Part shown: piece by piece, positions 19,405 to 41,964 of the stretch
Layout of the letters: each line of letters opens with the position of its first letter
How positions within the stretch are numbered: position 1 is the stretch's first letter
Assembly: GCF_039655865.1 (NCBI RefSeq)
Contig: NZ_JBBYXL010000002.1
Location: 248,001-312,000 of the forward strand
From: Prosthecobacter sp. SYSU 5D2
Lineage (GTDB): Bacteria > Verrucomicrobiota > Verrucomicrobiia > Verrucomicrobiales > Verrucomicrobiaceae
Direction: 5' to 3'
Length of the DNA: 64,000 nt
Notes under the pieces: generated by a model
What the model was told of the DNA's origin: nothing
Seen by the model: the letters and a program-made list of their open reading frames with translations, nothing else
Database searches by the model: none
Program-made: the position numbers and the translations under genes

Positions 19405-20202
19405 TTAATTGGCGGCGACCGGGGCGTTCAGGGTGGCGGCAGATTTCGCGGCGGCGGCGGCGGATTGTTCCTTTGCCCACTCATCAAACTCGGGGCCAGG
19501 AACGACTTCCAGGTTGGCCTTCATCTGGGCATGGCCTGGGCCGCAGAGCTGGCCGCAGATGATGTCCCAGGTACCTTCCTTGACAGGCTTGAACCACATG
19601 TGGGCCTTCACGCCAGGGATAGCGTCCTGAGCGGCACGCATGGGAACAATGGCCAGGTTGTGAATGACGTCCTTGCTGGCCACGTCCACGATCACAGGAC
19701 GACCAAGGGGGAGCTTCATGGTGCCAGGGTTGATGAAGTCATCCTTGCCGTTCGGGTCCAGCAGATCACGACCAGTGACGTTGGTGGGGGCGATGCTGCG
19801 CATGTCCCAGGTGCTGAGCATGAGGTCGTCGCCGGGATACTGGAAGTTCCAGAGGAATTTTTCGCCCATGGCGCGGATTTTGATGGTGTCCGGGCTGGTC
19901 GGGAAGTCATCGGCCTGATGGGACCAGAGGGGGAAGGCGAAACCGAGGAGGAGGATGGCTTCCACGACGACCACGCCGATCTCAATGTGGGTGGAGGCAT
20001 GGCCGCGCACGCCATGGTAATCGGCTTTGGGGTTCTTGCTCTGACGGAAACGCGTGAAGGCGATGATCAGGAAAATGGACCAGCCGATGAAGAGGGCCAG
20101 CATGAACCAGTGCACAAAGCCGAGCATGTGGTCCAGGAGACCGCCGTGTTCGGAGGCGTTTTCGGTGATGCCAATCCAGGTATTGATGTCAGAGACGCTC
20201 AT
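19405..20202 (-). CDS. coxB: Cytochrome c oxidase subunit II with Cu_A site
   Basis: 265 residues. Two membrane helices (FMLALFIGWSIFLIIAF and a second over VVVVEAILLLGFAFPLW) precede a periplasmic cupredoxin domain. The Cu_A ligands are visible: His181 (VIHN), Cys216 and Cys220 (CGQLCGPGH), His224 and Met227. The usual Glu between the cysteines is Gln here; in Cu_A that residue binds through its backbone carbonyl, so the site should work. There is no fused cytochrome c domain, so a separate cytochrome delivers electrons. It is the last gene of the operon, unlike most cox operons where coxB comes first. Confidence 0.94.
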   Translation of the reverse strand: MSVSDINTWIGITENASEHGGLLDHMLGFVHWFMLALFIGWSIFLIIAFTRFRQSKNPKADYHGVRGHASTHIEIGVVVVEAILLLGFAFPLWSHQADDFPTSPDTIKIRAMGEKFLWNFQYPGDDLMLSTWDMRSIAPTNVTGRDLLDPNGKDDFINPGTMKLPLGRPVIVDVASKDVIHNLAIVPMRAAQDAIPGVKAHMWFKPVKEGTWDIICGQLCGPGHAQMKANLEVVPGPEFDEWAKEQSAAAAAKSAATLNAPVAAN

Positions 20203-20662: not shown

Positions 20663-20989
20663 TTACTGGTTGCTTTCGTAAAATCCGGGGAAGACCAGCG
20701 GATCACTGGCAGAGAATACGAACAGAAAGAACAGCGCGATGGCAAATGCAGCGGTGAAAGCGAGGATCTTGTAAATCAGCTTGGCCTCGTGATTCAAGTG
20801 CATGAAGATCAGCGCCACCAAGCCCGCCTTGAAGGTGGCCACGATCATGCCCACCAGGATGTTCAGGCTGTGCGTGGGCAGTTCCACCGTGGAAAGCCAT
20901 ACCGTGACGATCGTGAAAAAGGCCAGCACCAAGCCGATGATCTTGATCCTCTTAATTGACTTGTGAATTTCTTCGTGACTGTCTGCCAT
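20663..20989 (-). CDS. coxD: Cytochrome c oxidase subunit IV (prokaryotic type)
   Basis: 108 residues with three membrane helices: LVLAFFTIVTVWLSTVEL, NILVGMIVATFKAGLVALIF with the conserved MHL next to it, and a C-terminal ILAFTAAFAIALFFLFVF. This layout, with a Lys in the second helix and MHLNHE after it, matches the CyoD/CoxIV-like subunit of bacterial heme-copper oxidases. It stabilises subunits I and III and binds no cofactor. It follows the Cox III gene in the same operon. Confidence 0.88.
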   Translation of the reverse strand: MADSHEEIHKSIKRIKIIGLVLAFFTIVTVWLSTVELPTHSLNILVGMIVATFKAGLVALIFMHLNHEAKLIYKILAFTAAFAIALFFLFVFSASDPLVFPGFYESNQ

Positions 20990-21030: not shown

Positions 21031-22431
21031 TTAGAGGAGATAAAGCAGCGGGAACAGGAAGATCCAGACCAAGTCCACAAAGTGCCAGAAGAGGCCGCCG
21101 ACTTCGACACGGTTGGCCAAGCGCTCAGGGTCGTTGCGGAGCATCTTGCCATCAAACAGGAGGAAATAGGTCAGAACCAGGGCACCCGCCACCACGTGCA
21201 GGCCGTGCAGACCCGTGAGGGTGAAGTAGATGGCGTAGTAGGTATTCAGTTTCGGTGTATAGTTGGAGAAGAAGGCGATGTCTTTTTTCTCAAGGGTCAC
21301 CTGCGGATGGTGGCCATGGTCACCATGATCTTCGGCGTGACCGGCAGCCGCTTCCGCTTTGTGTTCCCCCTCAGCGTGGGCGGCTGGCGGTGTGGCGGAT
21401 TTGATATGCAGGAAAAAGGATTCCTTCTGGTGGGTAGCACTCTTCAGCGGGTCACGGTTCGGATAGTCCTTCTTGAACGTAGCCTTGGCGTGGTCGCGGG
21501 TGGAGATGAATTCCTGTTTCCAGCCTTCACCCAGATACTGGCTGCTCCAGGCGAGGGAGTTTTCCGCATCGGGCACGGAGCGGAGGTCCACTCCGTCCAC
21601 ATCAATGACCATTTTGTCATCCAGCAGCTTTCCCGTGGCGGTGGTGCCATCGGCAAAGGTGATGGAGCTGGCGGAGTAACCGAGAAGCTTGGATGGTTTG
21701 ACCTTGAAAGTGACCGGCTGGCTGGCGGTGAGCTTGACCGTAGTGTCAGCCACGATGTTCATCTTCTGGGCTTCCCGGTCCTTGCCCTGGTCGCGGAGAG
21801 CCTGTTTCCTTTTCTCAAGGGCTTCTTCAGCAGCTTTCACTGTCTTTTTGCGGAAAGCACCGAAGTCGCTCAGGGAAAGCTCTTCACCGGAGGCCAGTTT
21901 GAAGGTGGGGGCCTCGCCCTGGATGTAAGGGAGGACGTAGTCTTCAGGATCGGCATCAATCGCCTTGTTTTCGCCAGCGATGGTCAGGGTGAACTCAGTG
22001 GCTTCGCCAAAGGTGATTTCATAACCTTGCGGAAGGTGGCCGGTGAGGAAGGTGCCGTCGGTCAGCTTGACTGCGTAGTGAGTGAACTTGCCGTAATACT
22101 CGTAGCTCTTGATGCCCATGAAAGCCAGGGCGCAGAGGATGGTAATGGCCAGATAAGCCCTGAACTTGGCGATGTTGCGCAGTTTCAGGTTGGCCCACGC
22201 GAGAAGCACCGTCACGGAGGAGAAGATGAGCACCAGGGTGTTGATGAATCCCGGTGCGACAGCCAGCTCATGAACCGGCCAGTGGTAGTCCGCCCCCACA
22301 CGCAGGAAGATGTAGGAGGAAAAAAGGCCGCCGAAGAGCATCACCTCGGAGGCGAGGAAGAGCCAGATGCCGACCTTGGCATTGTAGAGGCCCGTATCGG
22401 GGCGGGCGGTGACGGTATAGGGGATGTCCAT
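21031..22431 (-). CDS. coxC: Cytochrome c oxidase subunit III with a large extra domain
   Basis: 466 residues, more than twice the usual five-helix form (about 200). Helices corresponding to Cox III TM3-5 lie at about 20-45, 60-82 and 92-112 (KVGIWLFLASEVMLFGG, then FINTLVLIFSSVTVLLAW). TM6-7 are at about 398-424 and 446-466 (GLHGLHVVAGALVLTYF, FWHFVDLVWIFLFPLL). Residues about 118-390 are a hydrophilic insertion between TM5 and TM6. It carries three DGT-centred repeats (TDGTFLTGHL, ASGEELSLSDF, ADGTTATGKL), a coiled-coil-like helix and a His-rich run around 351-375. By standard Cox III topology the insert is on the periplasmic side, near Cu_A. It binds no known cofactor. Confidence 0.9.
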   Translation of the reverse strand: MDIPYTVTARPDTGLYNAKVGIWLFLASEVMLFGGLFSSYIFLRVGADYHWPVHELAVAPGFINTLVLIFSSVTVLLAWANLKLRNIAKFRAYLAITILCALAFMGIKSYEYYGKFTHYAVKLTDGTFLTGHLPQGYEITFGEATEFTLTIAGENKAIDADPEDYVLPYIQGEAPTFKLASGEELSLSDFGAFRKKTVKAAEEALEKRKQALRDQGKDREAQKMNIVADTTVKLTASQPVTFKVKPSKLLGYSASSITFADGTTATGKLLDDKMVIDVDGVDLRSVPDAENSLAWSSQYLGEGWKQEFISTRDHAKATFKKDYPNRDPLKSATHQKESFFLHIKSATPPAAHAEGEHKAEAAAGHAEDHGDHGHHPQVTLEKKDIAFFSNYTPKLNTYYAIYFTLTGLHGLHVVAGALVLTYFLLFDGKMLRNDPERLANRVEVGGLFWHFVDLVWIFLFPLLYLL

Positions 22432-22478: not shown

Positions 22479-24437
22479 TCAATGATGAGCAACCGGGGCA
22501 GGAGTCGGGGAGGCAGCGGCCACAGCAGCTTTGCCGGGCTCGGTTTCCCACTGCGGCAGGTAGTCCTGGGAGCAGGCGGGAACGCTGTATTCATAAGGAC
22601 CGCGGACGACGACCGGCTCAAAGGTGAAGTTGCCGTGCGGAGGCGGTGTTGGCGTGGCCCACTCCAGCGTCGTGCAGTGCCATGGGTTGTCGCTGTTGGC
22701 TTTACGGCCGCCCTTGATGCTGAGGAAGACGTTCAGGATGAATGGCACCTGGCCGAGGGCGAGGATGAAAGCGCCGACAGACATGAGGACGTTCAGGCCC
22801 AGGAGGTTGTTAGGCACATCCATGCCAACGAGGCCGAAGGTCCAGGAAGTGAGTTCTGTCACCCAGTTGGAGGCACTGCTGGTCTGCTCGAAGTATTTGC
22901 CACCGTCATACCAGCGGCGGTGGAAGCCGCCCATGCCCTGGATGAACATCGGGGCAAAGATGAGGTTCATGCCGAGCAGGGAAGGCCAGAAGTGCAGCTT
23001 GCCCAGGAAGTCGCTCATGAAGCGGCCGGTGATCTTTGGATACCAGTGATAAATGCCGGCAAAGAGGGCAAAGATGGTGCCGGGAGCCACCACATAATGG
23101 AAGTGACCGATGACGTAATACGTATCGTGCAGGGCCAGATCAATGAAGGTGAAAGCCAGAGGCAGACCGGTCAGACCGCCGATGCCGAACATGGGCAGGA
23201 AAGCAGATGCGAAAAGCATCTGCGGGGTGAAGCGGATGGAGCCGCCCCAAAGGGAGATCATTAGACCGGTCAGAAGGATGACGGAAGGGACGGAAATGAG
23301 CACCGTGGTGATCTGGAAGTAGGTGGACATCATCGTGCCCATGCCGGTCAGATACATGTGGTGGGCCCAGACCAGGAAGCTGAGGAAACCGAGGGTCAGC
23401 GCGGCATACACCATGGACTTGTAGCCCCAGAGAGGGCGGCGGGTGTTCGCCGGGATGACTTCCGCCAGGATGGCGAAGGCCGGAAGAATAAGCACGTACA
23501 CCTCAGGGTGGGCCAGGAACCAGAAAAGGTGCTGGTAAAGCAAAGGAGAGCCGCCACCGGAGATGTCCAAGTGCTGGCCGCCTTCCATGAGGCCGGTCGG
23601 GAGGAAGAAGCTGGCACCGAAGACACGGTCCACAAGCTGAAGCAGGGCGGCGACTTCCAGAGGAGGGAAGGCCAGAAGAAGCAGGAAGCTGGTCACGAAC
23701 ATGGCCCAGCAGAAGAACGGCATGCGCATCCAGGTCATGCCTTTGGCGCGCAGGTTGATCACCGTCGTGATGACGTTGACGGAACCAAGCAGGGATGCGG
23801 AAATGTTAAACACCATGGCCAGGAGCCACCAGGTGTGGCCGTGCATCCAGACATTGGTCACTGCGAGAGTCGTCGTGGAGGCCAGGGGGGAATACATCGT
23901 CCAGCCTGTCTGCACCGAACCCGTGCCGACAAAGAAGCTGGCAATCATCATCACGCCGCTGATGAAGAAGAGCCAGAAGCTCCACATGTTCAGTTTCGGG
24001 AAGGCCATATCAATCGTGCCGATCTGCAGCGGCATGACGAAGTTCACAAACCCGGCAAAACCCAGGGGCACAATGCCCAGGAAAACCATGATGGTACCGT
24101 GCATGGCACCGAGCATGTTGTATAACTCGCCGTTCACGATGCCGCCCGGTGCCCAACGGCCGATGGCGTCATGAAAGAAAGGTCCGATGACCGGCAGGCT
24201 CTCCACAAACAGCAGCCCTGGCACGGTCTCGCCGGGGAAGGCGATGCTCCAGCGCATGAGGAGCATGAGGAAGAAACCCAGCAGAAGGAACAGCAGGCCG
24301 CTCAGGCCATACTGGATGCCGATGACCTTGTGGTCACAGGAGAAGATATACTTGCCGAGGAATCCCGGCTCGTCGTGGTGATCATGCGCATGATCGGCTC
24401 CATGGGAGTGATCGTGGGTGGTGGCGGCGGCGCTCAT
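22479..24437 (-). CDS. coxA: Cytochrome c oxidase subunit I, A1-type
   Basis: 652 residues with about 14 membrane helices. All redox ligands are present: low-spin heme His113 (MHGTIMVF) and His447; Cu_B His310 with cross-linked Tyr314 (HPEVY), His359 and His360 (AHHMY); high-spin heme His445 (GHFH). Glu312 in HPEVY marks the A1 (D-channel glutamate) subfamily. It reduces O2 to water and pumps protons. The N-terminus has a His/Asp-rich tail (residues 8-21). Its neighbours supply subunits III, IV and II, making a full aa3-type oxidase. There is a 218-bp gap to the upstream cytochrome gene, large enough for an internal promoter. Confidence 0.96.
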   Translation of the reverse strand: MSAAATTHDHSHGADHAHDHHDEPGFLGKYIFSCDHKVIGIQYGLSGLLFLLLGFFLMLLMRWSIAFPGETVPGLLFVESLPVIGPFFHDAIGRWAPGGIVNGELYNMLGAMHGTIMVFLGIVPLGFAGFVNFVMPLQIGTIDMAFPKLNMWSFWLFFISGVMMIASFFVGTGSVQTGWTMYSPLASTTTLAVTNVWMHGHTWWLLAMVFNISASLLGSVNVITTVINLRAKGMTWMRMPFFCWAMFVTSFLLLLAFPPLEVAALLQLVDRVFGASFFLPTGLMEGGQHLDISGGGSPLLYQHLFWFLAHPEVYVLILPAFAILAEVIPANTRRPLWGYKSMVYAALTLGFLSFLVWAHHMYLTGMGTMMSTYFQITTVLISVPSVILLTGLMISLWGGSIRFTPQMLFASAFLPMFGIGGLTGLPLAFTFIDLALHDTYYVIGHFHYVVAPGTIFALFAGIYHWYPKITGRFMSDFLGKLHFWPSLLGMNLIFAPMFIQGMGGFHRRWYDGGKYFEQTSSASNWVTELTSWTFGLVGMDVPNNLLGLNVLMSVGAFILALGQVPFILNVFLSIKGGRKANSDNPWHCTTLEWATPTPPPHGNFTFEPVVVRGPYEYSVPACSQDYLPQWETEPGKAAVAAASPTPAPVAHH

Positions 24438-24655: not shown

Positions 24656-25399
24656 TTACGGAGCTGGAGCTGCAGCCGGAGCGGCTGCTGCCGTTGCACC
24701 GGGGCCGGCAGGAATGTCACCGGGGACGTTTTTGTCCTTGAAAGGCTCAAGCTCGGCCTGCGTCCACTGGGTGGCACGTTTCTCGTCAGCACGGACTTTT
24801 TCCACCATTTCTTTGGTGATCATCGTGCCTTCGTTGCCCCAGGTATTGCGGATGTAGGTCAGCACGTTGGCGAGGTCGCCTGCAGACATCGCGGCACCGA
24901 AGCCCTGCATGCCTCCGGGGAAGTTGTAGTTCTGGCCTTTGACCGTGACCTGGCCGACCAGACCGTGCTGCACCACGCGGATCAGACGCTCCGTGCCTCC
25001 GGTGACCCATTCAGAATCTGCTAGCGGCGGATACTGGCCAGCAAGACCCAGGCCGCTACCCTGATGGCAGCCACCGCAGACGGCATAACCGCTAGCACCC
25101 TTTTTCATGGCCACCTGGAAGGGATCGGCTTCAGCACCGCCATCGTTTTGTCCGGGGCGCGGGTCGCCACCGCCGAGCTTGCCGGTGGAGAAAGGATTGC
25201 TGACATTGAAACTGAAACCGCCCGTCATAGGACCAAGCTGGCCGCCGGCGATGATGGCGACGATCATGAACAGGAAGATGACCCAGACGGGAGCAGGTTC
25301 GTGACCGGGTTCCTGGTCAGATTTTTCACGCTTCACCGCTGCGTGCAGGCGGTCCAGATCATTGCTGTCAGGATTGGGGAAGGAGGAAGGAGCGCTCAT
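24656..25399 (-). CDS. Membrane-anchored monoheme cytochrome c
   Basis: 247 residues. An N-terminal cytoplasmic segment of about 36 residues, one membrane helix (PVWVIFLFMIVAIIAGG), a Gly-rich linker, and a cytochrome c domain with CGGCH at 108-112 and a likely Met ligand in GGMQGFGAAMS. The C-terminus is Ala/Pro-rich. It lies 26 bp after the CcoO-like gene and upstream of coxA. It probably hands electrons to Cu_A of the aa3 oxidase, which has no fused heme domain of its own. An alternative is a CcoP-like role with the CcoNO-like pair. Confidence 0.88.
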   Translation of the reverse strand: MSAPSSFPNPDSNDLDRLHAAVKREKSDQEPGHEPAPVWVIFLFMIVAIIAGGQLGPMTGGFSFNVSNPFSTGKLGGGDPRPGQNDGGAEADPFQVAMKKGASGYAVCGGCHQGSGLGLAGQYPPLADSEWVTGGTERLIRVVQHGLVGQVTVKGQNYNFPGGMQGFGAAMSAGDLANVLTYIRNTWGNEGTMITKEMVEKVRADEKRATQWTQAELEPFKDKNVPGDIPAGPGATAAAAPAAAPAP

Positions 25400-25425: not shown

Positions 25426-26112
25426 TTACTGTTTAGCTGCGGCAGGGGCGGCAGCGACGGCGGCTGGATCACCAGGGACAGGATAGTCTTTTTTCAGGGA
25501 GAGCAGGTAGTCCACCAGGGCTTCCGCTTCTGGGGTAGGCACCACTTCGTAGCCTTCTTTCACGGCGAATTTCTTGTGCAGCTTCAGTGCCTTTTCCGAA
25601 GTCTGCCCCTGAGCCAGACGCTCCGTGTAGAGGTGGGCAAAGGAAGGCATGTTGGACCAGTCATGCAGGCTCTTGGGAGCATACAGCATCTGGTGGATGC
25701 GCGCACGCTCAGGGGCACGCCAGCCGTAGTTGGTCAGGTCGGGACCGTTGCGCTGCACGCCGAGGAAAGCATACGGCTCATCCAGATAATCCAGAAGCGT
25801 ATTGGAGCGGACGGGTGCAGGCGGGCGGGCATCTTGGTCCATGCCCCAGCCTCTGCGCCAGCCGTCCAGGGCAAGCTGGGTGGGGCGGATCATCTGCGTG
25901 TGGCACTGGACGCAACCTTCACGGGCATAGACGAGCTGGCCCTGACGGTTGATGGGTGCAGGCGGATACTGGCCTTCCAGACCATCGCGGTCTTTGTCAT
26001 AGGGGACAGGGGACAGCGCCTGATACTGGATCGTCGGAACAATGATGAGGAAGAGCCAGGGAAGACCGAAGCTGGCAATCAGGGCGAGGATAAACGTGCG
26101 GAACTGGCTCAT
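25426..26112 (-). CDS. CcoO-like monoheme cytochrome c (cbb3 oxidase subunit II type)
   Basis: 228 residues: N-terminal membrane helix (LALIASFGLPWLFLIIVP), then a CcoO-like domain. Heme c motif CVQCH at 67-71 is followed by the CcoO hallmark TQMIRPT. The downstream RNGPDLTNYGWR and SNMPSF segments match CcoO, with Met as likely sixth ligand. An Ala/Pro tail ends the protein. Its ATG overlaps the stop of the CcoN-like gene by 4 bp (26109-26112), so the two are translationally coupled like ccoN-ccoO. The heme site looks intact even though the partner CcoN-like subunit lacks its heme ligands. Confidence 0.88.
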   Translation of the reverse strand: MSQFRTFILALIASFGLPWLFLIIVPTIQYQALSPVPYDKDRDGLEGQYPPAPINRQGQLVYAREGCVQCHTQMIRPTQLALDGWRRGWGMDQDARPPAPVRSNTLLDYLDEPYAFLGVQRNGPDLTNYGWRAPERARIHQMLYAPKSLHDWSNMPSFAHLYTERLAQGQTSEKALKLHKKFAVKEGYEVVPTPEAEALVDYLLSLKKDYPVPGDPAAVAAAPAAAKQ

Positions 26113-27587
26113 GCGTGGGCGGCGTGGGGAAGGGCTTCTTCGTGATCATGCTCAAGCAGCGTCGGGGCGGAACTGCGGCGACCAAGTCCGGCCACCATGA
26201 GCATGAGATGGATCAGGAACCAAACATTGGACCAAGTGATCAGTGCCCAGGCGATGGCGCGGGCGATGATGTAAGGGCGGAGGTTCAGCGCGAGCTGCAT
26301 GAAGTCCTGGTCCCACATTTCAGGGGAGTTAAGGTCACCGCCCTGCTGGATACCGGCGACGAGGCTGGTCACGACAATGGCACCGATGCCATAGACGGAG
26401 AACCAGAAGTGGTTGCGGATGAGGCGGACGGAAAGCCATTCACAGCCGGTCAGGCGGGGGACGATGTAGTAGATGGCCCCAAAGATGGTCATGCTAAAGA
26501 AACCATAGACGGCCACGATCTGGAAGCCATACCAGGCCTGAGTGAACTGAAGGGTGGCACCCGTGGAGAAATTGGAGATCAGGGCCAGGATGGCACCGCT
26601 GACAGGATAAAACAGCGCTCCGAAGAAGACGAAACGCAGCGTCGGGCTGGAGGCCACCATGTTATGCTTGCCCAGCGTGGTCAGGTGATGGTTTAGACCC
26701 ACCACGCCGACAGGAATCAGAAGCAGCACGCCCGTAGCAGCGCCAACCGCAGGCATCCAGGCCGGAAGGGGGCCGCCCATGTAATGTTGCATGCCCGTCC
26801 AGCCGCCGAGAACTGCCAGGAGCCAGAAACCGATCTGCGAGAGCTGGTAGCTCGCGACAGGCTGGCCGGTCACTTTCGGGATGAAGTAGTAAGCTGCACC
26901 AATGGCCACCGGGGCGAAGAACAGCAGGATCATCGTATGCACATACCAGGCATTGATGCCAGCACCGAGCGCACCCAAGCCGGGGAGGCAATGAAGGGCC
27001 ACATTGGCAGTGACGAAGATCCAGGGGAACCAGAAGCAGGCGGCCAGGATATACCAGGTGCTGACCATGAAACCTTCCGGACGGAACGCGCGGCCAAACA
27101 TGAACACCATAGGCCAGGCGAAGGCGAGGAAACTGATGAGCAATACCGGCCAGATGAAGGCGGGCATTTCCATCCACTGCATGGAGGTGCTTTTGCCGAG
27201 AAGGATGCAGACCAGGCCGATGGTCACGGCGATGTTCCAGAAGATGGCGGCCACGTATAGGACGCTTTTGCCAGTGCGAAGCACTTGGCCGGAGCGGCGG
27301 GCCATGATCCAGAGCATGGCACCGAGACCGGCCTGAACACCCCAGCCATAAACGAGGGCATTGATGTGTGTGGGCTGGAGCCGTCCGTATTGAAGCACGC
27401 TGCAGGCACCGAGGAAATCCGGGGCAAACTGCTTGATGGCGGCAAGGACGCCCAGGATGGTCGAAGCCATCAGCCAGAAAGCGCCGTTCAGGAAGAGGAA
27501 GAGCACCGGGCCTTTAACCGACTTGTCGATCGCCGCGCGGCGAAGGTTGTCGGCCTGGGTGTCCGTGGATGCTGGGGTGGTCTGCAT
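26109..27587 (-). CDS. CcoN-like subunit of cbb3 family, active-site ligands lost
   Basis: 492 residues with about 12 helices of the cbb3 subunit I fold; start at the ATG complement 27585-27587 (MQTTPASTD). His74 (QPTHINA) equals the TM2 low-spin heme ligand and His217 (WYVHTM) equals a Cu_B ligand. By eye alignment the TM10 HVH pair that binds both hemes is Phe355-Gln-Ile357. The TM7 HH is Gln267-His268, the cross-linked Tyr is Gly261, and the TM8 Glu (FEGP) is lost. The flanking TM10 match (FGAIYYIVPRLTG, then NHFW) fixes the alignment. It should therefore not reduce O2; a structural or bridging role is inferred. The C-terminus is His-rich. Confidence 0.85.
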   Translation of the reverse strand: MQTTPASTDTQADNLRRAAIDKSVKGPVLFLFLNGAFWLMASTILGVLAAIKQFAPDFLGACSVLQYGRLQPTHINALVYGWGVQAGLGAMLWIMARRSGQVLRTGKSVLYVAAIFWNIAVTIGLVCILLGKSTSMQWMEMPAFIWPVLLISFLAFAWPMVFMFGRAFRPEGFMVSTWYILAACFWFPWIFVTANVALHCLPGLGALGAGINAWYVHTMILLFFAPVAIGAAYYFIPKVTGQPVASYQLSQIGFWLLAVLGGWTGMQHYMGGPLPAWMPAVGAATGVLLLIPVGVVGLNHHLTTLGKHNMVASSPTLRFVFFGALFYPVSGAILALISNFSTGATLQFTQAWYGFQIVAVYGFFSMTIFGAIYYIVPRLTGCEWLSVRLIRNHFWFSVYGIGAIVVTSLVAGIQQGGDLNSPEMWDQDFMQLALNLRPYIIARAIAWALITWSNVWFLIHLMLMVAGLGRRSSAPTLLEHDHEEALPHAAHA

Positions 27588-27606: not shown

Positions 27607-28038
27607 TCAGTTCGCTGGAGCAGGTATGGCTGCCGGAGCGGCAGGAGTTGGAGCGGGTGCTGCTGGAGCAGCTGTGCCTGCAGGAGCAGGGGCAATGGCA
27701 GCAGGTGCCGGCTCGGCAGCGAGCCGCAATTGAGTCGGAGAACCGGGAACCACCTGGGTGCTGACGCCTTCCGGCCTGGCCTTCAGTCCTTCCAGGGTTT
27801 TGGCAAAGATGGCGGCTTTTTTGCTGCTGTCGTTGAGGCCCATTTTGGCGATGATCTCATTCTGCGCCTTGGTGATTTCCTCTTTGTTGGCCAGACGCTC
27901 AGGGATGCGCGGATCTTCCGCCCCTTGGGTGGCAAACAGTGACTGGATCAGATAAAACAGCACGGCGAAACTCGCAAACGCGGCCAGCACCCAAAGGAAG
28001 GTGGCTCCGGCTTTCGAAGGTGTAGCGGTTGATGACAT
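27607..28038 (-). CDS. Single-TM protein with Ala/Pro-rich tail, oxidase operon
   Basis: 143 residues. Membrane helix at about 12-34 (FLWVLAAFASFAVLFYLIQ), a conserved-looking juxtamembrane block (EDPRIPERLANKEEITKAQN) and a C-terminal 45-residue tail made mostly of Ala and Pro. No enzyme motif is present. It lies 11 bp after ActF and 19 bp before the CcoN-like gene, in the same operon. It could link the ACIII-like and CcoNO-like parts or correspond to a small accessory subunit. I do not recognise the family. Confidence 0.7.
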   Translation of the reverse strand: MSSTATPSKAGATFLWVLAAFASFAVLFYLIQSLFATQGAEDPRIPERLANKEEITKAQNEIIAKMGLNDSSKKAAIFAKTLEGLKARPEGVSTQVVPGSPTQLRLAAEPAPAAIAPAPAGTAAPAAPAPTPAAPAAIPAPAN

Positions 28039-28049
28039 GAAGTGGAAAA

Positions 28050-29408
28050 TCAGTTGGTGACGTTGGCGGACTCCAGCAGGCGCGGGTCACGGCAGGGATA
28101 CAGGCTGTATTTGGAAAGGCTGCGCAGAAAGAAGAAACCGGAAGTGCCCACCACCGCAAGCAGGGCGACGATGTCTCCGATCCAGGCTCCGGCGACCCAG
28201 TAGCCAAGGCCCAGGGAAGGACCGCGCTCAGGAATGACGTTCCAGTAGATGTCCACCAGATGCATGAACAGAATCCAAAGACAGACCACGGAGATCACAG
28301 CGGGATTCTTTTTGCGCGGCTGGGAGAGAAGAAGGACGAAAGGGCCGATGAAGTGGCCGACCACGATGAAGATGGACACCCAGCGCCAGCCTTCCGTGTT
28401 ACGGGTCAGGTAGAAGCGTGTTTCTTCGGTGATATTCGCGTACCAGATGAGGAAATACTGGCTGAAGGCGATGTATGCCCAAAACACCGTGAAGGCGAAG
28501 AGCAGCTTGCCCATCAGGTGGTAATGTTCTTCGGTGACAACCTGCTTCAGGTAACCAAGGCCTTTGAGCCAGGTGACAAGCAGGATCGTCAGGGCCATGG
28601 AAGCCCAGGCGCAGCCGGCGAAGATGTAAACGCCCCACATGGTGGAGAACCAGGAGTAGTCCAGCGTCATCAGCCAGTCCACGGCGGCGAAGGTGACCGT
28701 CAGGGCAAAGAAGAGCAGCCAGCGGCAGGAGAAGGAACGGGCGGAAATGGTGTGCTTGATGTCACCATCCTTATCCTGGTCTGTGGACTTTTTGCGCAGC
28801 CTGTAGGCAATGTAACCGAGGATCAGGAAATAGATGACGAAACGTGCCTGCCAGAAATCCACATTCAAATAACCGTATTTGGAAACCAGGATGTGCAGAT
28901 GCGGGTTTTCCAGAGACATGTGATGGAGTGCGTCCTTCACCGAGTGCATCTCATGGTGGTCGTCACCTTCGGTGGCGGGGGCGGCGTGGGCTGCAGCGCC
29001 CTGCTCATGGGCGATGAGGAGTTCCTTCGCCTCGCGGTGATGGTTCATCCACTCATAGAGAGGGGACTGCACCTGGGGAATCAACAGAGGAATACCAAGG
29101 AGACCGACGATCAAAGCCATGCTGGCCATCTGCTCCCATAGGCGGCGGATGGCCACGCCCCAACCAGAGTTGGAGGCACTGTGCAGCAGGATCCAGAAAC
29201 AGCCGCCGCACACAAAGGTGAAGGCAAAGAAGAAGGCGAAGAGCCAGCTGTAAGCAAAGACGTCCGTCTGGGCAAAAAACAGATAGGCGGAGCCAAGAAG
29301 GCCCAGCGCACCGGCGGCCCCGAAGGCTCCGATGAGCTTGCTGCCCTTGGCGGTTTCGAATTTCTCACCGCCCGCAGGCAGATCGTTGAATGTGACGTGG
29401 TGACTCAT
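28050..29408 (-). CDS. actF: Alternative complex III membrane subunit ActF
   Basis: 452 residues with about ten membrane helices and a soluble insert near residues 130-190. Recognisable ActF-like blocks are DWLMTLDYSWFSTMWGVY, YHLMGKLLFAFTVFWAYIAF and ANITEETRFY. ActF is a polytopic subunit of the quinol:cytochrome c oxidoreductase ACIII that, with ActC, spans the membrane and is proposed to take part in proton movement. It follows actE by 18 bp. The remaining ACIII genes (ActA multiheme, ActB molybdopterin-like, ActC NrfD-like, ActD) are not in this cluster. Confidence 0.88.
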   Translation of the reverse strand: MSHHVTFNDLPAGGEKFETAKGSKLIGAFGAAGALGLLGSAYLFFAQTDVFAYSWLFAFFFAFTFVCGGCFWILLHSASNSGWGVAIRRLWEQMASMALIVGLLGIPLLIPQVQSPLYEWMNHHREAKELLIAHEQGAAAHAAPATEGDDHHEMHSVKDALHHMSLENPHLHILVSKYGYLNVDFWQARFVIYFLILGYIAYRLRKKSTDQDKDGDIKHTISARSFSCRWLLFFALTVTFAAVDWLMTLDYSWFSTMWGVYIFAGCAWASMALTILLVTWLKGLGYLKQVVTEEHYHLMGKLLFAFTVFWAYIAFSQYFLIWYANITEETRFYLTRNTEGWRWVSIFIVVGHFIGPFVLLLSQPRKKNPAVISVVCLWILFMHLVDIYWNVIPERGPSLGLGYWVAGAWIGDIVALLAVVGTSGFFFLRSLSKYSLYPCRDPRLLESANVTN

Positions 29409-29426
29409 GCCTTGAAATGCCTGCTG

Positions 29427-30092
29427 TTACTGGACGGACACGTTGTTTTCCTTCACCGCCACCTGCATGGCGCGGATGTAGGCCACGATGGCCCAGCGAT
29501 CTTGAACGGTGATGCTGCCGCCGTAGGGGCCCATCAGTCCTTTGCCGTTCGCGATCACATCATAAATGGCTCCGTCTGCACGGTAGGCACCCGGATTTGA
29601 AGGATCAGTGCTGCCGGGCTGGTGGAAATTAAAGGCGGTCATGATGCCGTATTTGGACGTCACGCCCTTGCCGTTGCCGGAGGCTCCATGGCAAACGGTG
29701 CAATAAATGTTATATTGGCGCTCGCCGCGCTCCAGCAGTGCCTTGTTCAGCGTCACTTCCTTCGGCAGGCCGTCACCGTAATAGTCACCGATCTTGCCCG
29801 TGCTGTAGTAGTCAAGACCGTTGGCGAAGCCATACTGCGGCGGCTTGAAGTCCGGGGCGGAGGCAGGCTTGGCGGGGATCTCGAAGCCCACTGGCACGGT
29901 GCCTTTCACTGGACGGCGTGCGCCAAGGCCATCGGCAAAGAAATCGCTATGGGCCTGGTACTTCACCTTGGCTTGGTGATCCATGTCCTGGAAGATTTCG
30001 AGGGGCGGCAATTCGGACTTGCTGCCACGAGTGCCGAAGGCGGCGATGATGATCGCGGCAACAAAGAGGTAGCTGAGGAAAAAATATTTCAT
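29427..30092 (-). CDS. actE: Alternative complex III monoheme cytochrome c subunit ActE
   Basis: 221 residues: N-terminal helix (FFLSYLFVAAIIIAAFG) serving as signal or anchor, then a cytochrome c domain with CTVCHG; the heme motif is at 131-135, with a probable Met ligand in KGLMGPYGGS. The order next to actF and the motif DMDHQAKVKYQ fit ActE of ACIII. There is no lipobox cysteine, unlike some ActE proteins that are lipoproteins. It is the first gene of the oxidase operon; a promoter and a perfect dyad lie directly upstream. Confidence 0.86.
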   Translation of the reverse strand: MKYFFLSYLFVAAIIIAAFGTRGSKSELPPLEIFQDMDHQAKVKYQAHSDFFADGLGARRPVKGTVPVGFEIPAKPASAPDFKPPQYGFANGLDYYSTGKIGDYYGDGLPKEVTLNKALLERGERQYNIYCTVCHGASGNGKGVTSKYGIMTAFNFHQPGSTDPSNPGAYRADGAIYDVIANGKGLMGPYGGSITVQDRWAIVAYIRAMQVAVKENNVSVQ

Positions 30093-37364: not shown

Positions 37365-37473
37365 AACCCGCTCCAACCTGTTCATATTGTGTACCTTCGT
37401 GATGTTTTAGCCATTCCGTGTTAGGCTGGGTCCCGATCATGCTTTGATACAAAGGGCGTCCCCCCCTTTTGTC

Positions 37474-40400
37474 ATGAATTTGCCCCCCCCTGTCCGCCTG
37501 CGGACCCTAGGTGCTGCTGTCCGCGCGGTGCTGCTGGTCACGATATTGCACCCCTGCCTTCCCATCCCGGCTGCCAATCTCACCTGGGATACGGACGGCA
37601 CCGCAGGTGGCGCTACCGGCGGCACTGGAATCTGGGATCTCTCCGCCCTGCATTGGAACAATGCGGGCACCCTCCAGGCCTGGCAGAATACCGTCAGCCA
37701 CGCCGCCATTTTCGGTGGTACTGCTGGCACCGTGACTTTGGGCAGTCCCATCGCAGTCACAGGAATGACGTTTAACAGCAGTGGTTATTCCATCGTCGGT
37801 GGAGCTCATATGCTGACCTTGGGCGGCTCGGTCAATACCGTCACGGCCACCCACACCGCTTCCATTTTGGCGGATATGACCCTCTCGGCAAATACAAGTT
37901 TTGTCGGTGCGGGAGACCTGACCATCGAAACAGGCAGCACCATTGCAGGGGCCGGTTTTAATCTTTCCAAAGGCAACGCAGGCACTCTGACTTTGGGTGC
38001 TGAGATCGTAGATGCGGGCTCTCTTTCCGTCTCGGGTGGGGTGCTGGATCTCACTGGCAGCATGACCCGCACCCTTTATGCCACGGCCGGGTCATTGTCG
38101 GTCAGCGGCGGTGCTGTGCTGAATATTTATGGCACTTTGGGGACCTCCGCCGCTATTCCGACGGCGCAGACGGCCTTTTCTGGAAACAGCGTGACCAATA
38201 TCTACGGCACCGCCTACATGTCCGGGGGCTCCTCCACCTTCAGGATCGGAGAGGGGACCAATGCGACGGTCAATGTGGTGGGTGGCACTTTGACCATTGG
38301 CACATCTTCTGCCGGAGTGGCTTTAGGGCGGGGGGCGGCGACCGCCAGCGGCTTTCTCAACATCTCCGCTGGGTCCATGATCCTGGCCAGTAATACCAAC
38401 GTCTTCCGTGTGGGGGCAGGTTACTCCAATCCGGACAATAGCGGTGCCAGTGTGGTCACCCTGTCAGGCACAGGTCTTCTGGAAACACAGACAACGACTG
38501 GAACCATCCTTCTGGGGTCCAATCTGGCCGGCAATACCGCCAGCACCGGCACCTTTCACCTCGATGGAGGCACCTTGGCCACCAACCGCACCATCATTGG
38601 CGGGTCCGCGGGGGCCTCCTATTTTAACTTCAATGGCGGCACGTTGAAGGCCAATGGAACTACCGTCACCCTGGCCTCCTCCCTGACCACCGTCAATGTC
38701 CGCGACGGCGGCGGGACCCTTGATACTAACGGCTTCGATATCAATATCGCCAAAGGCATGACTCATTCCGACATCGAAGACGATGCAGCGGTGGATGGCG
38801 GCATCACTAAAACCGGCACAGGCATCCTCACCTTCAGCGGCTCCGAGGCCAATACCTACAACGGTGTCACCACCCTCAAGGCTGGCGAGCTGCATCTCAA
38901 CAAGGACGCGGGCGTCATGGCCATCGCGGGAAATATCACCCTGGGGGATGGCACCACCAGTGTTTTGCTGAAGCTGCTCGCCACGGGCCAGATCGCCGAT
39001 ACCAGCGTGATCACCCTGAACGGTACCGATGCCGATGCAGGCCTCTTCCAGCTCAATGGCATGAGCGAGACCATTGGCGGACTCATCAGCACCGGTGGTG
39101 CGGGTATGGTGGAAAACCAAAGCGCCACCGCCGCCACGCTCACACTGAACAATGTGGGCAGCCATAATTTCAGCGGCTTGCTGCGCAACGGCAGTCTGGC
39201 CGGCATACTCTCTTTGACCAAACAAGGCGCAGGCACACAGATCCTCAGCAGCATCGCCACTTATACGGGCGTCACCACCATTGACGATGGCACCCTCCAG
39301 TTCGGCGTGAACAGCGCGCTTACCGGTACCTCCAGCGTCATCATCGCCGGGGCAGGAAGCACCGTTCCCGCCACCCTGAGTATCAATGGTTATACCTGGA
39401 CGGCCCCCGCCCTCACCTTTTACAATGCCACCTCCACAGCCACCAGCCAGGGCGTCATTGACATCGGCACAGATGGCGTGCTGACACTGAGCAGCACCCT
39501 GACGGTCAACAATGACAACCAGCCTCTGGGTGCCCTCATCACCGGCGGGACCCTGGATTTTGGCGGGGCCACCCGTACCTTTGCCATTGCCGACAGCAGC
39601 AATGCCGTGGCGGACCTTACCATCACCTCCAACATCACCTCCACAACTGGAGGCCTGCTCAAAACAGGCACTGGCACCCTTCGGCTCACCGGAGGGGTGA
39701 CTTTGGCCGGGGGCATGAATGTCAGCAATGGCGTGCTGGAAGTTGGCGGCACCGTCAGCACCAGCACTTTTAACACGGTCATCGGTTCCATTCTCCCTGG
39801 CACCTTGCGCCTAACCGGAGGTTCCTACTCGACGACCACTGCCTCCGTCGGCACCATCAGCAACCAGAGCGGGGCCCTCATCGTCACGGGAGGAGATTTT
39901 GTTACCACCACTACCAGCACCTCATCCGGGATCCGGGTTGGTGAGAATGGCTACGGAGGGTTATTCCTTTCCGGCGGCACCATTTCTACGCAGCGGGTGG
40001 ATACTTGGGACGGCTCGGCAGCGTCCTCAGCAGCGGTCATACAGATCAGCGGAGGCATACTCAATACCGCCAACTACATCATGCTGCGCAATGAGCGCTG
40101 GGAATTCACGATGACGGGCGGGGAGGTACGTCGAACGGGGGATTACATCGCCCTGGGCTTCCGCAGCGGTAGCTCGGTGGGTAATGCCACCACCACCAAC
40201 CAGGGAGCCATGACTGTGGCGGGCGGCACGGTTAACAATGCCGGTTTCTTGGTCACCATGGGGCAGCAAAACAATGCCTCCGCCCTGGGCACCATCCACC
40301 TGAACCTGAATGCAGGCACCCTGATTACCAACCAGATCATCCTCTATAACTCTAATGATTCGGGAACCCGTGGGCATGTGAATTTTAACGGCGGCCTGCT

Positions 40401-41964
40401 ACGTGCGAGTGTCAGCCAGGCCAATTTTGTGACTGTGTCCGGCTCCACAGGAACTGGCTCCCTCACCGCTTACGTCAATGGTGCTTTCGGGGCCTTTGAC
40501 GGCGGGGCGGTGATTGATTCCAACGGAGTTAACATCACTATCCCCATTGCTCTTTTGACCCCCACCGGGGACGGCGTCTCTGCCATCCCGCTGATCTCCG
40601 GCGGCAGCGGTTATATCGGCGCGCCGTATGTTGAGATCACCGGCGGCGGCGGCAGCGGAGCCACCGCCTCCGCCACTGTGGACCAGGATCCCACCAGCGC
40701 CACCTACGGCCAGATCCTCAGCATCACCGTCACCAATCCGGGCATCGGATACACCGCCGCGCCCACCATCACCCTCATCGGCGGCGGCGGTACTGGAGCG
40801 GCCATCGGCACCGTCACCACTTTGACCAATACTTCCGGCGGACTCACCAAAAGCGGCACCGGCATTCTTACCCTTTCGGGTGCGGCAGAAAACACCTTCA
40901 CCGGCACATCACAGATCCTGGCCGGGGAGCTTCATCTGGCCAAGACCGCCGGCGTCACCGCCCTGGCCGGAGACATCCACATCGGCGACGGCAGTGCCAG
41001 CGCCGTGCTGCGTCTAACCAATAGTAACCAAATTGCCGATACCAGCGTGGCCAGCTTCACAGGCAGCGGAGCCGCCGCCGGCACCTTCCGCCTGAACAAC
41101 CAGAGCGAAACCATCGGCGGCCTTAGCAGCAGCGGCGGCGCAGGCATTGTCGAAAATGAATCCGGCAGCGCCGCCACCAGCACCCTCACCCTCCAGGTGG
41201 CTTCCGGCATCCAGACCTTCAGCGGCATCCTCCGCAATGGTGACGGCAGCGGCACGGATGGCACCCTGGCCCTGGTTAAATCTGGCGCAGGCACCCAGGT
41301 TCTCAGCGGCCTCAATACCTACACCGGCAGCACCACCATCAGTGCAGGCATCCTCCAGCTCACCGGCATCGGCAGCACTGGAACCGGAGCCGTTACCGTG
41401 GCCAACGGCAGCACCCTCTCCGGCACAGGCACCGTCCGTGGCAGCAGCTTCACCGCCGCCAGCGGAGCCATCATTCATGCGGGGGATGGGACCGATGCCG
41501 CCAGCTTCGGCACCTTGCAGTTCTCCCCCATCTCCGGAAACGGAACCTTGGATTTCCAGGCTGGAAGCGTCATCATCCTGGGGCTTAATCCGGGGGGCAT
41601 CTCCGATCTCCTCAGTTTCACAGGCACCAGTGAGACCAGCCTCCTTTTGAATGGCGGCCTCACCATCACCGCCCCTGGCTTTACTCCCACCGCTGAACAG
41701 ACTTTCAATCTCCTCGACTGGACCGGACTCATCTCCGCCCCCACCTTTGCCAGCCACTACAGTTCCGGCGGCTACCTTTACGGTAATGGCGAGGAGGCCA
41801 CGGGGCTGGACCTGCCGGACATCTACGGCAGCGGCTACGCCTGGGACCTCAGCCAGTTCACCACTAACGGCTCCCTCCACCTCATCTACGTCATTCCGGA
41901 ACCTTCCCGCGTCTTCCTTCTCCTCGTCTCCCTTGGCTGCCTCATCAACCGTCGCAGACGCTGA
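37474..41964 (+). CDS. Autotransporter-associated beta-strand repeat protein with PEP-CTERM tail
   Basis: 1,496 residues from the ATG at 37474; a TTG at 37444 would add 10. Signal-like N-terminus ending around PIPAAN. The body is Gly/Thr/Ser/Asn-rich right-handed beta-helix made of TIGR02601-type repeats such as KTGTGILTFSGSEANTYNG, repeated TLSGxNTYTG and GGLxxSGGAG words. A distinct loop-rich segment near residues 1040-1110 has GGSGYIGAPYVEITGGGG and ITVTNPGIGYTAAP. It ends with IPEPSR, a hydrophobic helix and RRRR, a PEP-CTERM signal, instead of a beta-barrel. Probably exported and anchored or released by an exosortase; an adhesin or matrix role is inferred. Confidence 0.9.
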   Translation: MNLPPPVRLRTLGAAVRAVLLVTILHPCLPIPAANLTWDTDGTAGGATGGTGIWDLSALHWNNAGTLQAWQNTVSHAAIFGGTAGTVTLGSPIAVTGMTFNSSGYSIVGGAHMLTLGGSVNTVTATHTASILADMTLSANTSFVGAGDLTIETGSTIAGAGFNLSKGNAGTLTLGAEIVDAGSLSVSGGVLDLTGSMTRTLYATAGSLSVSGGAVLNIYGTLGTSAAIPTAQTAFSGNSVTNIYGTAYMSGGSSTFRIGEGTNATVNVVGGTLTIGTSSAGVALGRGAATASGFLNISAGSMILASNTNVFRVGAGYSNPDNSGASVVTLSGTGLLETQTTTGTILLGSNLAGNTASTGTFHLDGGTLATNRTIIGGSAGASYFNFNGGTLKANGTTVTLASSLTTVNVRDGGGTLDTNGFDINIAKGMTHSDIEDDAAVDGGITKTGTGILTFSGSEANTYNGVTTLKAGELHLNKDAGVMAIAGNITLGDGTTSVLLKLLATGQIADTSVITLNGTDADAGLFQLNGMSETIGGLISTGGAGMVENQSATAATLTLNNVGSHNFSGLLRNGSLAGILSLTKQGAGTQILSSIATYTGVTTIDDGTLQFGVNSALTGTSSVIIAGAGSTVPATLSINGYTWTAPALTFYNATSTATSQGVIDIGTDGVLTLSSTLTVNNDNQPLGALITGGTLDFGGATRTFAIADSSNAVADLTITSNITSTTGGLLKTGTGTLRLTGGVTLAGGMNVSNGVLEVGGTVSTSTFNTVIGSILPGTLRLTGGSYSTTTASVGTISNQSGALIVTGGDFVTTTTSTSSGIRVGENGYGGLFLSGGTISTQRVDTWDGSAASSAAVIQISGGILNTANYIMLRNERWEFTMTGGEVRRTGDYIALGFRSGSSVGNATTTNQGAMTVAGGTVNNAGFLVTMGQQNNASALGTIHLNLNAGTLITNQIILYNSNDSGTRGHVNFNGGLLRASVSQANFVTVSGSTGTGSLTAYVNGAFGAFDGGAVIDSNGVNITIPIALLTPTGDGVSAIPLISGGSGYIGAPYVEITGGGGSGATASATVDQDPTSATYGQILSITVTNPGIGYTAAPTITLIGGGGTGAAIGTVTTLTNTSGGLTKSGTGILTLSGAAENTFTGTSQILAGELHLAKTAGVTALAGDIHIGDGSASAVLRLTNSNQIADTSVASFTGSGAAAGTFRLNNQSETIGGLSSSGGAGIVENESGSAATSTLTLQVASGIQTFSGILRNGDGSGTDGTLALVKSGAGTQVLSGLNTYTGSTTISAGILQLTGIGSTGTGAVTVANGSTLSGTGTVRGSSFTAASGAIIHAGDGTDAASFGTLQFSPISGNGTLDFQAGSVIILGLNPGGISDLLSFTGTSETSLLLNGGLTITAPGFTPTAEQTFNLLDWTGLISAPTFASHYSSGGYLYGNGEEATGLDLPDIYGSGYAWDLSQFTTNGSLHLIYVIPEPSRVFLLLVSLGCLINRRRR

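Follow-up and report, generated by a model that had tools for sequence, protein, structure and literature searches.

A CcoN-like oxidase subunit with very probable loss of O2 reduction, encoded beside alternative complex III genes in Prosthecobacter and other Verrucomicrobiae

A 64,000-nucleotide stretch of DNA from Prosthecobacter sp. SYSU 5D2 (contig NZ_JBBYXL010000002.1, positions 248,001 to 312,000; hereafter the window) carries, between two genes of alternative complex III (ACIII) and the genes of an aa3-type oxidase, a gene for a protein with the fold of CcoN, the subunit I of cbb3-type (C-type) oxidases, in which residues expected to bind the hemes and the copper are replaced. Heme-copper oxidase genes are commonly taken to signal O2 respiration, and cbb3 genes a high affinity for O2, but the window gene belongs to a conserved group of cbb3-type genes whose products, judged by their ligand positions, are very probably incapable of O2 reduction. 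We think it rather likely that this protein is a decayed C-type oxidase core that has been reused as the scaffold on which a relay of c hemes leads away from ACIII.

Results

The open reading frame (ORF) of the window CcoN starts with an ATG at 27587 and ends with a TGA (26111–26109) that overlaps the ATG of the following ccoO. Its product matched COX1 alone in Pfam (160 bits) and stayed below the cut-off of the NCBIfam ccoN equivalog (126.5 bits, cut-off 583.15), and in a phmmer search against PDB its residues 37–417 aligned with CcoN of Pseudomonas stutzeri (3mk7). An AlphaFold2 model based on 46 aligned sequences, in which we counted 12 long membrane helices, had a predicted local distance difference test score (pLDDT) of 92.9 and a predicted template modeling score of 0.92, and it aligned with chain D of 3mk7 over 444 residues at 1.9 Å (Z 47.9, 23% identity). 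The top structural matches were five CcoN structures (Z 46–48), followed by NO reductases (42 and 40). The cbb3 subunit I fold, which the original prediction had called clear, is thus borne out by phmmer, by the predicted model and by its alignment to the experimental structure.

Residue equivalences were numbered by the 3mk7 sequence, using the phmmer alignment and an alignment of 124 sequences, and we presume the usual roles of the 3mk7 residues as ligands of heme b, heme b3 and CuB. Three of the six ligand histidines are kept (His74, His217 and His268), and Gln267, Phe355 and Ile357 stand in place of the others. Both alignments agree with what had been read from the sequence alone: the HVH motif of transmembrane helix (TM) 10 is replaced by Phe355-Gln-Ile357, the TM7 histidine pair aligns with Gln267-His268, Gly261 occupies the place of the cross-linked tyrosine of TM7, and the glutamate of the FEGP motif is lost. 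The claim that only His74 and His217 remain has to be amended, as both are indeed kept but His268, at the H258 position, is kept as well; a histidine is found there in only 24 of the 85 dead relatives described below. Since the FEGP glutamate is also missing from all 21 intact relatives, its loss is uninformative with respect to activity. From the ligand positions, loss of catalysis is near certain, and the earlier proposal that the protein cannot reduce O2 is very probably correct. With the motifs of CoxA and the CuA motif of CoxB intact, O2 reduction by the operon would therefore rest on the aa3 oxidase. The genome contains a second CcoN-like gene on another contig (C13), an 805-amino-acid frame with all ligands present.

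Despite the lost ligands, the gene is under purifying selection. The ratio of nonsynonymous to synonymous substitution rates (dN/dS, Nei–Gojobori) was 0.031–0.081 against five relatives, compared with 0.038–0.086 for coxA (three relatives), 0.08–0.13 for ccoO and 0.08–0.15 for actF (five relatives each); dS was 0.7–1.6 in these comparisons, and a sixth relative (L010) was saturated and left out. By this measure, selection on the dead ccoN near the window is as strong as selection on coxA. Elsewhere, dN/dS spanned 0.008–0.287 among dead pairs and was 0.014 and 0.049 in two intact pairs.

A search for homologs beside act genes, as the original prediction had suggested, showed that the loss is not isolated. 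Among 108 ACIII-linked CcoN sequences of the class Verrucomicrobiae in which all seven catalytic positions are covered, many of them close relatives that inflate the counts, 21 are intact (all seven residues present), two (L060 and L063, family f6) keep the low-spin heme b pair H60 and H347 and have lost the heme b3, CuB and tyrosine residues, and 85 are dead. Loci obtained twice were counted once, the partial loci L041 and L046 were left out, and rows were thinned before trees were built. Counted by genome, the phylum sample held 21 intact, two low-spin and 42 dead cases, with locus L123 of genome G078 left out of the table. In the 85 dead rows the two heme b ligands never occur together, and 13 of these rows have none of the six histidines. 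From intact to dead sequences, conservation fell most in TM7 and TM9. The fold is also predicted for a distant dead member from a pmoA-bearing genome, which has one of the six histidines left and is only 15% identical to 3mk7 CcoN (pLDDT 88.6; Z 45.5–46.9 to the same five CcoN structures).

Matches at E 1e-5 occurred in 91 of 288 Verrucomicrobiota genomes, of which 66 belong to the same class as the window genome, and many of these genomes also had a match resembling canonical CcoN; in the class of genome G127, 32 of 146 genomes matched, and a subset of these entered the census. A pattern scan of contigs across GTDB, which reaches close relatives only, yielded 45 loci, all titled Verrucomicrobia or one of its genera, including two titled Akkermansia muciniphila that are perhaps mislabeled metagenome-assembled genomes. 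The cultured species Brevifollis gellanilyticus (L013) has the dead form.

The ACIII-linked sequences form one clade, separated with support of 100/99 from the proteobacterial trios L137–L141 and the verrucomicrobial loci L109, L118 and L119, and with a support of 100 in the Shimodaira–Hasegawa-like approximate likelihood ratio test from canonical CcoN and others. A single origin of the dead state was rejected by the approximately unbiased test when all non-intact rows were forced into one clade (p 0.0135), although not when L086 was removed (p 0.241). Three state changes are needed on the careful tree, whereas on a quick tree with more rows all of its 62 dead rows lie on one side of a branch with a support of 67. 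The dead state probably arose at least twice.

Some CcoN-like genes were seen beside those of the census. G078 has, at L123, a shortened ORF of 347 amino acids with the ligands gone, followed by ccoO and a cytochrome, and act genes were not found nearby. Genomes G018 and G099 (L110, L120) have a second CcoN-like gene on a long separate branch; its frames of 550–634 amino acids retain the ligands, and a long frame resembling CcoO accompanies it. In families f24 and f56, which belong to another class, the single-gene cases (L108, L109, L114–L119) have an intact CcoN together with CcoO; a match to actF was not found nearby, and an adjacent ORF of about 600 amino acids matches the ActE profile weakly.

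The order actE–actF–(ORF or cytochrome c)–ccoN–ccoO–cytochrome c is conserved over 110 loci, and the window has it too, with actE and actF upstream and ccoO and the cytochrome gene downstream. Where the sequence left room, 106 of 107 loci have actF upstream of ccoN (L121 does not), and 106 of 107 have ccoO after it; the exception, L102, does have ccoO, but its long frame failed the position rule. Among loci with more than 4 kb of sequence, 47 of 68 dead ones and 0 of 8 intact ones have coxA downstream, and in twelve longer loci it is adjacent in 4/4 dead, 1/7 intact and 0/1 low-spin cases. The description of the gene as a CcoN paralogue inside an aa3 operon therefore holds in part: coxA does adjoin here, but the constant neighbors are actF and ccoO, and the gene represents a dead version within an ACIII-linked lineage that has intact relatives in other Verrucomicrobiae. 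In the window genome, ACIII itself is split. Another contig (C10; L147, 5540–11868) carries an ORF with five CxxCH motifs, which we take to be ActA, together with actB, actC and actD, whose ORFs match ActB, ActC and ActD ORFs of L130, while actE–actF lie in the window at 28050–30092; in L130 and L136, from the same family, actC and actE–actF are found within one stretch. Thus, although the other ACIII genes lie apart here, actE–actF have remained beside the dead module. In two genomes of 1.3 and 1.7 Mb (G146 and G001; L079, L081), an intact ACIII-linked CcoN is the sole COX1-family gene, and by sequence these probably have a working ACIII–cbb3 system as their only heme-copper oxidase.

The heme-binding motifs of the c-type subunits have fared differently from those of CcoN. 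One CxxCH each is kept in the dead loci by CcoO (85/85 ORFs), by the cytochrome c (93/93) and by ActE (65/65), and a methionine after CxxCH, a candidate axial ligand, is present in 113 of 114 aligned cytochromes. The loss of cofactor sites is thus confined to the b-heme/copper subunit and spares the c-heme subunits, and the earlier statement that the CcoO partner is intact agrees with this.

Family f4 deserves separate mention. All five of its genomes (G262, G054, G152, G042, G072), and none of four others tested, have pmoA-family genes, and in these five (L107, L111–L113, L121) nothing but a dead CcoN matches the window protein at E 1e-5. Four of them read SESSH at positions 60, 207, 251, 257 and 258, and the fifth reads ADAAH. 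The gene follows actF in four of the five (not in L121), and coxA comes next in all five. In the passages concerned, the literature on verrucomicrobial methanotrophs describes a cbb3 oxidase adjoining ACIII, either tying this oxidase to high O2 affinity (PMC6688271) or counting it as one of three oxidases (PMC8498564), or lists cbb3 among three terminal oxidases (PMC10205796). Judged by class, genome size and pmoA, the five pmoA-bearing genomes appear to belong to the genera treated in these papers, and their heme-dead CcoN would stand against the cbb3 terminal oxidase listed for verrucomicrobial methanotrophs.

The operon in the window reads, on the minus strand, actE, actF, a small ORF, ccoN, ccoO, a monoheme cytochrome c gene, coxA, coxC, coxD and coxB (Table 1); the ORFs after coxB presumably correspond to ctaA, ctaB and SCO, which they resemble. 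The actF profile also picks up an ActC-like ORF of relatives, and in some relatives a cytochrome c takes the place of the small ORF. CoxC (466 amino acids) has a long hydrophilic insert after the first helices, and the CoxC frames of several relatives are long too (455–558 amino acids). Outside the operon, 37444–41964 encodes a repeat-rich protein of 1506 amino acids that looks autotransporter-like by eye.

Table 1. Operon genes and ligand codons of the CcoN-like protein in the window.
Feature	Position	Strand	Basis
actE (putative), ACIII monoheme cytochrome c	29427..30092	minus	position, similarity to act operons of relatives
actF (putative) of ACIII, no Pfam match	28050..29408	minus	position, similarity to act operons of relatives
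Small ORF rich in Pro and Ala, 143 aa, matching no family	27607..28038	minus	Pfam, NCBIfam
ccoN, heme-dead CcoN-like subunit, 492 aa	26109..27587	minus	Pfam, phmmer, alignment, AlphaFold
His74 codon (heme b ligand H60 position), kept	27366..27368	minus	alignment
His217 codon (CuB ligand H207), kept	26937..26939	minus	alignment
Gly261 codon (cross-linked Tyr251 position), Tyr lost	26805..26807	minus	alignment
Gln267-His268 codons (CuB ligands H257 and H258), first lost, second kept	26784..26789	minus	alignment
Ile333 codon (FEGP Glu323 position), Glu lost	26589..26591	minus	alignment
Phe355-Gln356-Ile357 codons (in place of TM10 HVH), ligands of heme b3 (H345) and heme b (H347) both lost	26517..26525	minus	alignment
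ccoO, monoheme cytochrome c subunit resembling FixO/CcoO, with CxxCH	25426..26112	minus	Pfam FixO
Monoheme cytochrome c, hydrophobic stretch near N-terminus (likely anchored)	24656..25399	minus	Pfam cytochrome c
coxA, A-type oxidase subunit I; MHG, HPEVY, HH and HFHY motifs intact	22479..24437	minus	profile, motifs
coxC, subunit III	21031..22431	minus	Pfam
coxD, subunit IV	20663..20989	minus	Pfam
coxB, subunit II, CuA motif intact (CGQLCGPGHAQM)	19405..20202	minus	Pfam, motif

Discussion

The fold retained in the predicted structure and the intact CxxCH of CcoO support, as the best reading, the earlier idea that this protein was kept for a structural role near ACIII and the aa3 oxidase. In the scenario that we favor, an ancestral C-type (cbb3-like) oxidase would have become encoded with ACIII in Verrucomicrobiae and would later have left the reduction of O2 to aa3 or to another oxidase, with subunit I surviving as a membrane frame. 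The dead CcoN would be bound, as a non-redox frame, to ACIII on the ActE/ActF side, and it would anchor the monoheme domain of CcoO and the following monoheme cytochrome c at the periplasmic face. Electrons would then pass from menaquinol to ACIII, over fixed c hemes, and on to CuA of the adjacent aa3 oxidase, or in other genomes to oxidases encoded elsewhere; this relay via c hemes to an oxidase is what we infer from the arrangement. In its favor we count the ligand loss under a retained fold, the large share of dead forms among ACIII-linked CcoN with intact relatives in the same gene position, the CxxCH motifs of the partner cytochromes, the low dN/dS near the window, the conserved gene order, the frequent coxA beside dead loci, the aa3-like COX1 genes of all dead or low-spin genomes, and the position of actE–actF in the window genome. 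A wider version, in which a whole oxidase core lost its hemes and copper on more than one occasion to become a stable wiring frame of ACIII, forming a respirasome of ACIII, dead cbb3 and aa3 with a c-heme wire, and in which the low-spin-only L060 and L063 and the intact L072/L135 next to coxA are living intermediates, strikes us as slightly doubtful. By their residues, L060 and L063 are a possible heme b-only intermediate.

Several observations weigh against a c-heme relay on a dead scaffold. A candidate axial methionine of CcoO is present in only 90 of 106 sequences, and no act gene was found alongside the CcoN of L121. In four dead pairs (L111/L113, L111/L112, L088/L093 and L095/L102) dN/dS is 0.16–0.29, and the spread among dead pairs indicates a weaker constraint in some dead lineages. 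Within the sequence covered, coxA was not found downstream in 21 of the 68 dead loci; a dedicated bridge between ACIII and aa3 is therefore not universal, and we had to reject a strict coupling of dead CcoN to aa3. At the genome level, an aa3-like COX1 gene (above 400 bits, judged by score and read by eye) is present in 44/44 dead or low-spin genomes and missing from 4 of 21 intact genomes, but the corresponding Fisher p of 0.009 overstates the link because catalytic status, the presence of aa3 and the adjacency of coxA all cluster by lineage on the tree, and with the four aa3-less genomes coming from two genera the contrast is an indication and not a test.

A further point of this kind is that ACIII of Flavobacterium johnsoniae still feeds aa3 with ActE deleted, as passages of PMC8552683 state, and it speaks for the main rival, a role as glue only. 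Here, CcoN would be a supercomplex glue or assembly factor that keeps ACIII and aa3 joined, or ACIII itself in one piece, with the adjacent c hemes off the main electron path. That the linkage to actF holds where coxA does not follow is in line with such a function; however, the CxxCH motifs of CcoO and the cytochrome are kept in all dead loci scanned, and glue alone needs no such sites. We regard this explanation as unlikely, though it is the one to be taken most seriously beside the relay scaffold.

The conservation of the His74 position in 55 of the 85 dead rows is the last point against a scaffold free of cofactors, and it would fit a protein that still carries one: a heme bound in five-coordinate form by His74, a heme shifted to new histidines, or a role involving quinone or ion translocation. 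His199 (64% of dead rows) and His460 (72%), both absent from the 21 intact rows, point the same way, as does the H60/H347 pair of the two low-spin rows. Against this stand the absence of a complete heme b ligand pair from every dead row and the 13 rows that are stripped of all six histidines, and the only histidine in more than 90% of dead rows, His393, is shared with intact rows. We consider a remaining cofactor improbable.

An active oxidase that uses other ligands, or that only seems dead through a misassigned alignment, would agree with the cbb3 label given to the ACIII-adjacent set in passages of the methanotroph papers, but phmmer and the structural alignment concur on the fold and dead rows differ from one another at the ligand positions, and on these positions we reject this reading as extremely improbable. 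A decaying pseudogene or annotation artefact, which the complete loss of ligand histidines in some dead rows might suggest, is rejected with the same firmness on account of the open frame, the low dN/dS near the window and the gene order conserved over 110 loci.

The clade offers a natural series from intact through low-spin-only to dead forms, including that of the cultured Brevifollis gellanilyticus, which makes the evolution of supercomplex wiring testable.

Comparison with known systems

With CcoN of P. stutzeri (3MK7), the window protein shares the fold and ccoO as the next gene, whereas its heme b3, CuB and bis-histidine heme b sets, the tyrosine and the FEGP glutamate are broken or gone. 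Known structures of cbb3 oxidases show CcoO held on CcoN, and CcoP of canonical cbb3 oxidases is a two-heme protein; in the window, ccoO is followed instead by a monoheme cytochrome gene.

C-type oxidase genes that adjoin ACIII in Opitutaceae and verrucomicrobial methanotrophs are mentioned in passages of PMC8498564, which credit Refojo 2010. They occupy the same place after actF, and they probably represent the clade of the window gene. In the passages concerned they are treated as a cbb3 oxidase, whereas in our data all five pmoA-bearing copies and many others are dead. In the excerpts of open-access literature searched, no description of a heme-dead CcoN with ACIII was found. As in the ACIII–aa3 supercomplex of F. 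johnsoniae, ACIII would be coupled to aa3; there, contact is made via oxidase subunit III, and CcoN or CcoO is not named in the relevant passages of PMC8361435.

The nearest relatives of the ACIII-linked clade that we found outside Verrucomicrobia are plasmid-borne ccoN–ccoO–cytochrome c trios of Azoarcus, Paraburkholderia, Cupriavidus, Paracoccus and Indioceanicola (L137–L141), with 33–36% identity and the same gene order. Of 380 matching records in the plasmid collection, these five regions were examined, and all seven catalytic residues are intact in each, with the FEGP glutamate replaced by glutamine; the 17 kb examined around the trios contained no match to the actE or actF profile.

A parallel to a terminal-oxidase subunit that has lost its heme ligands and is kept in a complex is CydA' of the archaeal CydAA' bd-type oxidases. 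CydA' belongs to an unrelated protein family, however, and its partner is its own active paralogue.

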